In this document: in pieces, positions 11,142 through 15,310 of the stretch
Numbering within the stretch: position 1 is the stretch's first letter
Layout: every line of letters starts with the position of its first letter
DNA from: Candidatus Nanopelagicales bacterium
GTDB lineage: Bacteria; Actinomycetota; Actinomycetes; S36-B12; UBA5976
Assembly: GCA_018402365.1 (NCBI GenBank)
Contig: JAGYJD010000004.1
Span: forward strand, 1-64,000
DNA length: 64,000 bases
Reading direction: 5' to 3'
Made by a program: the position numbers and the translations under genes
Notes under the pieces: model-generated
The model's database searches: none
The model's input: the letters and a program-made list of their open reading frames with translations, nothing else
What the model was told of the DNA's origin: nothing

Positions 11142-12986
11142 CTAAAAGGGTACCGAACCATCATCAGATTCAACTTCACGAAGGGAGGCCATCAACCCTA
11201 AAGCTCTAGCAAGTTGTTGATCTTGATTGAGGTTTAAATCGGCTTCAATGATTTCCCCAGTATTGGTATCAACGCTAACGCCCTGATATCTGGTTATTCG
11301 ACTGTCGGTATTGGCGAATTCACACCATTTGGACACCGAGCACCAGTTGCAGGGTGGGTTTTGGGTAGGAATAAATTCTTTATCGTTAATCCAAAAATCT
11401 GCAGCTTGCGCTAATTTTTGCCAAGCCAAACTAGTTATTAATGGGTCGGAGATATCGAATTCGATCAAAGTAGCAGAATCTTTGGTTAAAATTTCTAATT
11501 CAACTCTTCGCTTAGCTGCTTGACTCCACTCTTGTGGGATATTTGGAAGATTTTTCACTCGATTCATTAAAACTATTGCTAAAGGTATTTGCGGGTAAAT
11601 ATCTAAAAAAGCTTCAGGTGAGACTTCGTAATTTTTATCTGTTGATTTAGTCTCTCGCCAAACTAGAGTATTTTTTGCAAAATAAATCAAATCTGGCCTA
11701 GTGCCAACTAAACTTTGAGAATCAGAATCCATCACCCACATCTCGACTTCATTTTTAAGTTGGGTGCCGCTCTTAATTGGGCAAGTCTTAAGATGATGCC
11801 TTAGGTACGCTTCACTTGCTGCTACTTGTTCAGAATTCCAAGCTAATTTATTTGCAATTTCCCCAAAATCTTTTTCACTTGGTAAGTCGGATTTTTGGCA
11901 AGCTTGATTTCTTTTATGAGCCTCTTCAATCCAGGCATGAACCGAAAGACCCCGCTCTTGGTGGACTGTCGAAAGTTGCGGTAATGAAGGAAGTGATAAT
12001 TCGTGTTGCAAAAAGTAGGCATGATTACATCTGAGATAAGTATTTAACTTTGATGGCGAAAAACTCTTTACGCTTTCTGAAGTATTTATAACGCCCAGGA
12101 GTCCCGCTACGGTTGGTAAAGTGGGGCAAACAGGATTAGCTCTACATTTAAGACATTCTGATGAAACTTTTTGTTCACCACCCACAAGTCGCGAGCTGAT
12201 TAAGCTGTAAAAATCCTCATTAGGCAAGTCAAGATTGGTAAGGGATTCATCAAAAATTAATTTTTGGCTTCCGTCCAGTACTCCTAGCTCTCGAATTCTT
12301 ACTTGCTCAGGTGCCGGCCAAATACCATTCAAAGCTTGGGTGGGGGAGCGAAAATCCATACCACTATTCGCCTCACCTTGAGTTAAGACTTTTACAATCG
12401 CAGCAAGTCGATTTGGATTAATGGTACTTTTTCCAGCGGAGTGCATCTTTAACATCCGAAACTCGCGCACTTTGAAATCTGTTGTCGTTAAATAAAACCC
12501 CCAAGCGAACCACTCAACACTTTGACTTGAGTTACTAAAGGCAATGGGATCTATTAATTGTGTGAAAATATCTTCACTTTCAGCATTAGCTTTAAGCCAG
12601 GCGGAAGCGAAGCCACCTACTGCGTCTGCTAACCATTTTTCAGTGGCTGGGTGTACTGGACTTCTACTTTGCGAAATCTGCTCAGAAAGTGATTGCGAGA
12701 TGAATTCGTCTAATTGGTCTTCATCAAACAAAAGTCCCTTTGCATTGAAACTAGTAACGAAGGCATCTTTAAGTAAGCCCAGGGGAAAGCTTTGAAAATT
12801 CTCACTCGAATTTTGACTAAAGGTCTTACTAACCTTGGTAGTGGGGCGTGACTTTAGGGCAAAATTATCCAGACAAAGCTTTTCATTTGCTACTCCAATT
12901 TGGGTGGCGCTCAATCTAATGAATTCACCTGGTTGATAGATAAAGCTGGGATGCCAAGCGGGAATTTCAATCTCAGACTTAGTCAT
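11142..12986 (-). CDS. Two-module RecB/AddB-like PD-(D/E)XK nuclease with two four-cysteine sets
   Basis: No named gene recognised. Taking ATG at 12986 gives 614 residues. An upstream in-frame start at 13037 would lie 59 bases inside the preceding gene and adds a segment unlike any domain. The C-terminal half is a RecB-family nuclease: SPSKLNTYLRC (Cys320), His350, Asp432 in GTRPD, ETK at 445-447, Gln466, then CxxCx5C at Cys546, 549 and 555. The N-terminal half has the same frame, LSATQI plus Cys38 and then Cys278, 281 and 287 with identical spacing, but I see no D...(D/E)XK core. It looks like a tandem duplication in which the first copy lost catalysis. No helicase motifs. A DNA end-processing or repair role is inferred. 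Confidence 0.7.
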   Translation of the reverse strand: MTKSEIEIPAWHPSFIYQPGEFIRLSATQIGVANEKLCLDNFALKSRPTTKVSKTFSQNSSENFQSFPLGLLKDAFVTSFNAKGLLFDEDQLDEFISQSLSEQISQSRSPVHPATEKWLADAVGGFASAWLKANAESEDIFTQLIDPIAFSNSSQSVEWFAWGFYLTTTDFKVREFRMLKMHSAGKSTINPNRLAAIVKVLTQGEANSGMDFRSPTQALNGIWPAPEQVRIRELGVLDGSQKLIFDESLTNLDLPNEDFYSLISSRLVGGEQKVSSECLKCRANPVCPTLPTVAGLLGVINTSESVKSFSPSKLNTYLRCNHAYFLQHELSLPSLPQLSTVHQERGLSVHAWIEEAHKRNQACQKSDLPSEKDFGEIANKLAWNSEQVAASEAYLRHHLKTCPIKSGTQLKNEVEMWVMDSDSQSLVGTRPDLIYFAKNTLVWRETKSTDKNYEVSPEAFLDIYPQIPLAIVLMNRVKNLPNIPQEWSQAAKRRVELEILTKDSATLIEFDISDPLITSLAWQKLAQAADFWINDKEFIPTQNPPCNWCSVSKWCEFANTDSRITRYQGVSVDTNTGEIIEADLNLNQDQQLARALGLMASLREVESDDGSVPF

Positions 12987-13875
12987 CGAAAGGTAGTCCG
13001 CTCTCTTGCGGCAAGTTGCTACGAACTCTTTTTTCAAGACCTAATTGCACTAATTGCTGATTCGACGCTTCGCTGCCGGGGGTAGGGGCATCGGAGTTTC
13101 TTGCAGGGCAAACTTTTTCAAAGGCACAATACCGACAGAGCGGACCAGTTTTGGCAACCCAAGCCTTGCGCTCTAGTGCAACTTGCATGTTGCCTCTCGC
13201 GTTAACTAAATCTAAAAGTGCCCGATCAAGTGCATTTGGATACGTTGGGCGGACTACCCGATCAGCGGAGCCTAAGTAGATCAACTCGACTTCATGCACT
13301 GTCTCACCTTGAATTTTTAAACCTGCTGCGTAAAGCATCACTTGTCGTAAGGACTCCGGCAAATACTTTGCCGCGGGCTTTTTACCAGTCTTATAGTCAC
13401 TTATTCGTGTTAGCGGTTTTCTGGTGATCCGATCTAACCGCCCATAAAGTTTTACATCTTTGACAATTGCCGTAACGGGCCGCTCTAGATCCTCTATTAG
13501 AACTTCCACCTGACTGGGATCTTCTAATTTAAAATAATTAGAGAGCGAGTCAGCGCTGCGTTGTTTTAGTACGCCAATAGTTCCATCGGTTAGCCAAGAT
13601 TGATGAACTGAGATGGTATTTGCGCCAACTTCACGCAGTAAATCCCATGCCATGGCTTTATCGCGCTCTACTTTTGGCAACTTCATCAAATTTTCTAAAA
13701 CATCATGAACTAAGCTGCCAATGATTTGCGGAAGCTGTGGTGGTTCACGCCAGCCAGCAACCGAAGAGAACCAATAGCTCAATTCACATTTTTCAAAGGT
13801 GCTGAGTTGACTGGGTGAGAGGTGGGCCGGCAACGCCGAACCAACATCCTCAACTGCCACCGTCATTTCGACCAT
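12979..13875 (-). CDS. RecB-family PD-(D/E)XK exonuclease with four-cysteine iron-sulfur-type staple
   Basis: A single RecB/AddB-type nuclease module of 298 residues. SPSQLSTFEKC gives Cys30; then His57, GRLD with Asp148, DYK at 160-162, Gln178 in RQVMLY, and CRYCAFEKVC with Cys247, 250 and 256. Cys plus CxxCx5C is the arrangement that holds a 4Fe-4S cluster in AddB- and Cas4-like nucleases. Stand-alone actinobacterial proteins of this type are annotated as RecB family exonucleases and have no settled role. The C-terminal tail ends ESGLPFDD. It is read just before the two-module nuclease (8-base overlap), so the two probably act together. No clear ribosome binding site precedes ATG 13875. Confidence 0.78.
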   Translation of the reverse strand: MVEMTVAVEDVGSALPAHLSPSQLSTFEKCELSYWFSSVAGWREPPQLPQIIGSLVHDVLENLMKLPKVERDKAMAWDLLREVGANTISVHQSWLTDGTIGVLKQRSADSLSNYFKLEDPSQVEVLIEDLERPVTAIVKDVKLYGRLDRITRKPLTRISDYKTGKKPAAKYLPESLRQVMLYAAGLKIQGETVHEVELIYLGSADRVVRPTYPNALDRALLDLVNARGNMQVALERKAWVAKTGPLCRYCAFEKVCPARNSDAPTPGSEASNQQLVQLGLEKRVRSNLPQESGLPFDD

Positions 13876-13930: not shown

Positions 13931-15310
13931 CTAAATTGCTTTTACGGCCGCGATTACTTTGGTAAGCGAATCTTTTGCATCACCAAATAAAAGTGTGGTC
14001 TTGTCGTTAAAGAGCAGTTCATTGTCGATCCCAGCAAAGCCTGGACGCATTGAGCGCTTCATGAATACAACTTGTTCGGCTTGGTCAACATTTAATATAG
14101 GCATTCCATAAATTGGAGAGTCAGCATCGGTGCGAGCGGCGGGGTTAACTACATCGTTAGCACCCACTACTACCGCTACATCGGTAGAAGCAAATTCTGA
14201 ATTTATTTCATCCATCTCTTTAAGCTGATCGTAGGGAACATCTGCTTCTGCTAGCAAAACGTTCATGTGTCCAGGCATTCTTCCGGCTACTGGGTGAATA
14301 GCGTACTGAACTTCAATTCCTTTACTCATTAATAAGTCAACTAGTTCTCTTAGTGATTGCTGAGCTTGGGCAACTGCCAATCCGTATCCAGGAACGATAA
14401 TGACGCGAGAGGCGTAAGCCAACATAATTCCGATGTCATTTGGTTGTGCGGATTTAACAGAGCGATCTTCTTGCGAGTTAGAGATTTTTTGAGCAGTTTT
14501 GGTGAAAGCACCAAAAAGTGTGTTTGTCAAAGGTCTTCCCATGGCTTGCGCCATCAAACGGGTGAGCAAAGTTCCCGAAGCTCCAACTAAGGTACCTCCA
14601 ACTAACAACAAGACGTTTTCAAGTACATAACCCATGCCAGCCACCGATAAGCCAGTGAAAGCATTCAGCAAACTAATTACGATCGGAACATCAGCGCCAC
14701 CAACAGGCAAAACAAATAAGATACCCAAAACTAAAGCCAGAACAGACAAAGTCCACATTGCCCAAGCAGTTGGATCAACAATTAAATAACCAGCAAGTGC
14801 CAAATTAGCTAAAGCAACTCCGATAGTGATAAAGCGCCCCAGAGGAATAATCACAGGTCGTGAGGTCATTAATTCTTGAAGCTTTAAAAATGTCACAATC
14901 GAACCAGTAAATGCGACGCCGCCGATAATGATGGTTAGTACCGTTGCCACTAAGGCAATCGGAGAGGTGTAAATGGATCCAGTGAGAAATTCAATTACCG
15001 CAACCGCCATCGCAGCTCCACCGCCAGCGCCGTTAAAAAGCGCAACCATTTGAGGCATCTGCGTCATTTGAACTTTCTTGGCCGCAAAGTAACCCAAAAG
15101 TGAACCAACCACCATGGCAATCAAAATTATTTCAACATTTTGAATATTGTTTATAGCAAAGAACACCACAACCGTGGCCACGATGGCGCCGATGGCACCC
15201 ACGCGATTACCCAATCGAGCAGTCTTGGGGCCAGAGAGAGCTTTGAGCGCCAATATGAAAGCAACTGCCGCAACTAAGTTAATTAGTTCTGTCCAAATTG
15301 GAGGATTCAC
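13931..15310 (-). CDS. pntB: NAD(P) transhydrogenase subunit beta PntB
   Basis: Membrane and NADP-binding part of proton-translocating transhydrogenase, which uses proton motive force to reduce NADP+ with NADH. The N-terminal two thirds are strongly hydrophobic (dII helices, including YFAAKKVQMTQMPQMVALFNG). The last 180 residues are the soluble dIII domain with VIIVPGYGLAVAQAQ and VVVGANDVVNPAA, which bind NADP. GTG start overlaps pntA2 by 4 bases. 459 residues, usual. NADPH supply for amino acid and nucleotide synthesis is the likely role. Confidence 0.95.
   Translation of the reverse strand: MNPPIWTELINLVAAVAFILALKALSGPKTARLGNRVGAIGAIVATVVVFFAINNIQNVEIILIAMVVGSLLGYFAAKKVQMTQMPQMVALFNGAGGGAAMAVAVIEFLTGSIYTSPIALVATVLTIIIGGVAFTGSIVTFLKLQELMTSRPVIIPLGRFITIGVALANLALAGYLIVDPTAWAMWTLSVLALVLGILFVLPVGGADVPIVISLLNAFTGLSVAGMGYVLENVLLLVGGTLVGASGTLLTRLMAQAMGRPLTNTLFGAFTKTAQKISNSQEDRSVKSAQPNDIGIMLAYASRVIIVPGYGLAVAQAQQSLRELVDLLMSKGIEVQYAIHPVAGRMPGHMNVLLAEADVPYDQLKEMDEINSEFASTDVAVVVGANDVVNPAARTDADSPIYGMPILNVDQAEQVVFMKRSMRPGFAGIDNELLFNDKTTLLFGDAKDSLTKVIAAVKAI

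Follow-up and report, generated by a model that had tools for sequence, protein, structure and literature searches.

A PprPDDEXK-type tandem nuclease paired with a second nuclease, outside pPIWI-RE operons and with an SSB-like C-terminal tip

Two overlapping genes and their three nuclease modules

The window, the whole stretch of 64,000 nucleotides analyzed here, comes from the 1.34-Mb draft genome (47 contigs, 88% complete) of Candidatus Nanopelagicales bacterium. It carries two genes on the - strand, gene 1 (12979..13875; 298 aa) and gene 2 (11142..12986; 614 aa), whose stop and start, respectively, overlap by 8 bp (12979..12986, TTTCGATGACTAA). Translational coupling is likely, and in relatives the two genes likewise overlap or nearly abut. 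The start of gene 2 was set at the ATG at 12986 rather than at an upstream TTG at 13037 because relatives have the same start. As named from reading of the translations, pntB (13931-15310) lies upstream of gene 1, and an aldehyde dehydrogenase gene followed by ftsQ and murC lies downstream of gene 2; an adjacent pPIWI-RE REase (domains Y/REase) or DinG-type helicase gene is absent from this neighborhood. Candidate promoter and terminator sites for the pair occurred at chance level only. SOS control was rejected, as no LexA-like box lies near the genes and the one site with two mismatches (44846) is at chance level.

Gene 1 encodes a PD-(D/E)XK nuclease with a full catalytic set (H57, D148, D160-Y-K162, and Q178) and four cysteines (C30, C247, C250, and C256), all of them the same in 16/16 homologs. 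It is matched by Pfam PDDEXK_1 (E 7.7e-28), and its structural model (pLDDT 90) has AdnA (1.9e-8) and then ACE1 (1.8e-7) as nearest folds in Foldseek. The protein is a relative of the common actinobacterial RecB-family exonucleases, and a solo form of it exists in another genus of the same family. A separate, more distant RecB-family exonuclease paralog occurs in addition to the pair in five genomes of the window's own genus, scoring ∼75–140 bits with the gene 1 profile compared to 395–527 for the paired gene 1. A Cas4 identity was rejected, with 42.8 bits against the curated Cas4 model (cut-off 65; gene 2 had no match), and phage Cas4/RecB proteins are only weakly similar to gene 1. One relative carries a second gene 1 copy truncated to its first 168 residues (L036:4445-5020, the same as G006:C1 and L124:1875-2453) directly upstream of the intact pair, which is either a recent duplication or an assembly error.

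Gene 2 consists of two such modules in tandem. Its C-half (11310..12089; residues ∼300–559) is intact, with H350, D432, E445-x-K447, and Q466 present in 24/24 homologs and a Pfam PDDEXK_1 match at 308–556 (E 9.1e-19). The N-half (12099..12986; residues ∼1–296) has no match in that search. Its catalytic His, Asp, and Lys are gone: neither a His nor an Asp is conserved at the corresponding sites of the 24 homologs, which mostly have E-x-R/H for E-x-K, these positions having been placed by model secondary structure and motif spacing, with single-residue matches somewhat uncertain. The cysteines of both halves (C38/278/281/287 and C320/546/549/555) are nonetheless invariant in 24/24 homologs at 23–40% identity, C555 being missing in one homolog only, where the contig end cuts it off. 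Judged from the aligned homologs, cysteine conservation in both genes is far beyond chance.

In profile comparisons with hhalign, the C-half aligned with gene 1 at a probability of 97% and with the N-half at 62% (E 7.5e-5), whereas only the cysteine segment of the N-half aligned with gene 1; the fold assigned to the N-half therefore rests on the comparison of the two halves and on the model of gene 2. In that model (pLDDT 84.5, pTM 0.84), helices and strands follow one another in the N-half as they do in gene 1. For gene 2, Foldseek again places AdnA (2.8e-7) and then ACE1 (1.6e-5) nearest, while phmmer against the PDB returned no sequence relatives. By these sequence and model comparisons, the N-half is a degenerate copy of the PD-(D/E)XK module. 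An earlier note on this DNA had described two overlapping genes with three modules of this cysteine spacing, two of them keeping the D…(D/E)XK core and one seemingly having lost it, and had staked its reading on a PD-(D/E)XK fold in the first half of the large protein. The gene positions and every listed cysteine proved exact, and its reading of one dead and two live RecB/AddB-like modules is right, gene 1 and the C-half being the intact ones.

Family, distribution, and the C-terminal tip

Gene 2 belongs to a family already present in PADLOC, matching PDLC02423 (PprPDDEXK) over residues 106–557 (E 8.8e-48). Among 39 genomes (the window's own and 38 relatives, which are titled Nanopelagicales or uncultured actinobacteria and are mostly metagenome-assembled), 13 carry gene 2, each time right after gene 1, and the pair sits at a single chromosomal spot next to pntB in its own genus and one other. 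PIWI-RE (RNaseH_pPIWI_RE, PF13032) was found in 0/39 of these genomes, including the 88% complete own genome. Across the class the distribution is patchy, as a profile search detected the gene 2 family in 27 of 395 genomes, and viral contigs contained no gene 2 relatives; a phage origin was rejected on the latter ground and on the weak likeness of gene 1 to phage proteins.

In an unrooted tree of 48 gene 2 proteins, the window's branch (branch A; 21 rows, support 94/86) has gene 1 directly upstream in 21/21 loci. Group B comprises 14 gene 2-like copies, each followed by a pPIWI-RE REase gene (14/14 loci) and then, in the 12 operons checked by profile, by a DinG-type gene; in the other two, that place is occupied by an ORF 1209 or 1289 aa long. 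PIWI-RE was present in both group B genomes tested as positive control (G199 and G284), and gene 1 is absent from the PIWI-RE loci. The window's branch and the PIWI-RE branch are separate, with support of 95/95 in this tree and 100/99 in an earlier, smaller one, and the dead N-half occurs in the PIWI-RE branch as well. As a side observation, the actinomycete pPIWI-RE island (L049-L057, L192, L195, L197, and L200) is a four-gene unit with the tandem PDDEXK gene first.

The remaining copies are few. Group C holds two plasmid copies whose neighbors encode a hypothetical protein and an ImmA/IrrE protein, group D three solitary copies from large genomes, and group E seven solitary copies that fall within the PIWI-RE side of the tree but lack PIWI-RE partners; L190, an outlier, is a distant gene 2 copy that also has a gene 1-like neighbor, in addition to the 21/21 paired loci. 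Two observations stand apart from the pair itself. An actinomycete plasmid cassette (L155:8536-12107, NZ_CP110616.1; L154:8824-12526, NZ_CP108380.1) combines a PprPDDEXK-like nuclease, a ∼265-aa hypothetical protein (with a weak PIN match in one of the two), and a convergent ImmA/IrrE peptidase gene, and may be an undescribed defense or mobile-element module. Within the PIWI-RE branch, a chromosomal, solitary, and tip-less PprPDDEXK-like gene (L191, L193, L199, L201, L202, L204, and L205), frequently close to one particular short, conserved gene, is apparently an escaped or domesticated copy. In addition, a record titled Bifidobacterium breve (L038, CAMATO010000024.1) carries a gene 2 nearly identical to a copy from a Nanopelagicales MAG (with terminal branches of 0.009 and 0.026), and its title is probably wrong.

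The most informative feature of gene 2, overlooked in the earlier note, is its C-terminus (11145..11309), where a linker containing a VDxxTGEII segment, with a tail modeled at low confidence (pLDDT 46, then 30 for the last residues), leads to an SSB-like end. In the intact proteins of branch A, the terminal residue is F in 20/20, preceded by P in 18/20 and by a hydrophobic residue (I/L/V/F) in 20/20, with acids before it (e.g. DDDIPF, DEDLPF, TDDVPF, DEEFPF, and DEEFAF); the motif is weaker in the window's own copy, which ends in SDDGSVPF. The linkers ahead of it vary in length and are barely alignable, the VDxxTGEII segment being common. Scanning the DNA of the 39 genomes for [DE][DE]-hydrophobic-P-F-end gave 20 matches, of which 11 mark the end of gene 2 and no more than a few others the end of any gene, compared to 23 matches in all for a reversed-pattern control. 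The termini of host SSBs are of the same style (EEPPF, DEPPF, or DEAPF), and similar tips occur in group D (DDDAPPF, DDTPPF, and EADPPF) and in a Rhodococcus plasmid copy (DEDEPPPF). Caution in reading a function from such a motif is advised by DdrB, whose SSB-like C-terminal motif turned out to be unnecessary for radioresistance (PMC3834827). Separately, a phage-like protein of ∼200 aa that is unrelated in sequence (L033, G031:C73:13802) also ends in SDDEIPF.

None of the 14 PIWI-RE copies, whose operons include a DinG-type helicase gene, has the tip, and it is also missing from group E, L154, and L190. This agrees with a link between tip absence and an operon helicase, but the events behind the correlation that are independent of each other are few, and group E, L154, and L190 depart from it. 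On the tree, the distribution is consistent with an early origin of the tip in the family and its loss upon entry into the PIWI-RE operon, although on an unrooted tree separate gains are also possible.

Proposed function and alternatives

Features read directly from the sequences, namely the modules, their dead or live residues, the coupling of the pair, and the distribution of the tip, suggest a reading of nuclease activity, Fe-S content, complex formation, docking, and substrate to which we give a probability of about one half: the pair would be a helicase-free RecB-type nuclease complex that docks on host SSB partners via the SSB-like tip. Both products would form one complex with no motor of its own, in which gene 1 acts as the active DNA-end nuclease, probably with an Fe-S cluster, the N-half of gene 2 is a dead module retained for its Fe-S-type scaffold and probably also for binding DNA, and the C-half is the live nuclease; this joining of dead and live modules resembles the pairings in other RecB-type machines. 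We propose that gene 2 carries the tip because the complex lacks a motor. On its disordered linker, the tip could dock on host proteins that bind SSB tips (candidates are RecO, RecG, PriA, RecQ, and DnaG), several of which are helicases (PMC10164576, PMC10018359), and so bring the complex to single-stranded or stalled DNA, possibly with borrowed helicases. Its work would then be to trim ends or gaps, either in replication or repair intermediates or in DNA that enters the cell. A role in DNA maintenance is suggested by the constant chromosomal position and the tip, and one in defense by the sister branch together with the plasmid copies.

The latter evidence leads to a possible but somewhat doubtful alternative, a reduced anti-invader nuclease, in which the PprPDDEXK family processes invading DNA together with either PIWI-RE or gene 1 and the tip targets replicating plasmid or phage DNA. 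The sister branch is indeed the first gene of pPIWI-RE operons, ACE1 is among the closest folds, plasmid-borne members adjoin an ImmA/IrrE protein, and occurrence in the class is patchy; in Synechococcus, moreover, a Cas4-like nuclease and Ago both restrict the RSF1010 plasmid (PMC10653904). However, in its own genus the pair keeps a fixed place by pntB and the cell-division cluster and adjoins no mobile or defense genes, viral contigs lack relatives, and the pair is kept in small genomes of 1–1.3 Mb.

The tip itself could be read differently. Acidic C-termini of SSB-type proteins can compete with DNA for basic clefts, and gene 1 has a short LPF near its C-terminus in the window's own genus, so that the acidic-P-F end of gene 2 might be an autoinhibitory flap over the DNA-binding cleft of the nuclease, or a docking site for gene 1, instead of an SSB mimic. 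We consider this quite unlikely, as the SSB-style order with a free C-terminal Phe is kept in copies without an adjacent gene 1 (L196, L198, L203, and L155). Least probable by far is a decaying remnant of a PIWI-RE operon that has lost PIWI, DinG, and REase, as the shared family and the inactive N-half might suggest, because copies in the PIWI-RE branch likewise have a dead N-half, the branches are well separated, the constant partner gene 1 is absent from PIWI-RE loci, and live residues invariant at ∼30% identity indicate strong selection on gene 2.

Returning to the SSB-docked nuclease complex, we tentatively extend it to the family, though we consider this wider reading less likely than not: a motorless tandem nuclease of Fe-S type with an SSB tip mimic may borrow helicases or mediators, the mimic being lost on recruitment to DinG-bearing pPIWI-RE operons. 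If true, this would be a general route to a resection or defense nuclease without a dedicated motor, and a tip acting like that of SSB would make gene 2 a nuclease that recruits a helicase in trans. The same tandem nuclease serves in a PIWI-RE defense operon in large actinomycetes and in a tipped two-gene unit in small freshwater actinobacteria, linking two fields. With such an SSB-like action of the tip, this simpler relative could also serve to study what the uncharacterized PDDEXK gene does in pPIWI-RE systems.

Comparison with known systems

PD-(D/E)XK modules with Cys…CxxCx5C are common to gene 1, gene 2, and AdnAB, AddAB, and RecBCD, but, unlike those enzymes, neither gene 1 nor gene 2 contains a UvrD-type helicase domain. 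The absence of a helicase partner put forward in the earlier note thus holds for the operon and not for the genome, where AdnAB-like (C46) and UvrD-like genes lie on other contigs; with AdnAB present, the idea that the pair replaces it was rejected. Stand-alone actinobacterial RecB-family exonucleases share superfamily and size with gene 1. The E. coli SSB tip (DDDIPF) shares with gene 2 the acids, a hydrophobic residue or Pro, P, and the terminal F, but sits on an OB-fold protein, whereas that of gene 2 sits on a nuclease.

ACE1, an Argonaute-associated Cas4-family protein (PDB 9IAB and 9IAC), resembles both genes in fold, and its association with a PIWI protein resembles that of gene 2's sister branch; it is, however, a single module of ∼266 aa with 12–19% identity to the pair, and is named for pAgo, not PIWI-RE. 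Closest is the PprPDDEXK of pPIWI-RE systems, which has the same tandem architecture of dead and live modules as gene 2 and is homologous over most of its length, but gene 2 instead pairs with gene 1, carries the tip, and has no PprRE or DinG neighbor. We found no paper using the name PprPDDEXK, and pPIWI-RE was described by Burroughs et al. (2013) as a three-gene island, with RecB and Cas4 unmentioned (PMC3702460). The earlier note's view that this is not a described system therefore stands for the pair, of which we found no description, and is incomplete for the large protein, which PADLOC-DB already lists as a pPIWI-RE PDDEXK component. The gene 2 family and the superfamily of gene 1 are thus already known; what is new is that a tandem nuclease of the PprPDDEXK type occurs apart from PIWI-RE, is constantly coupled to a second nuclease, and ends in an SSB-like tip.
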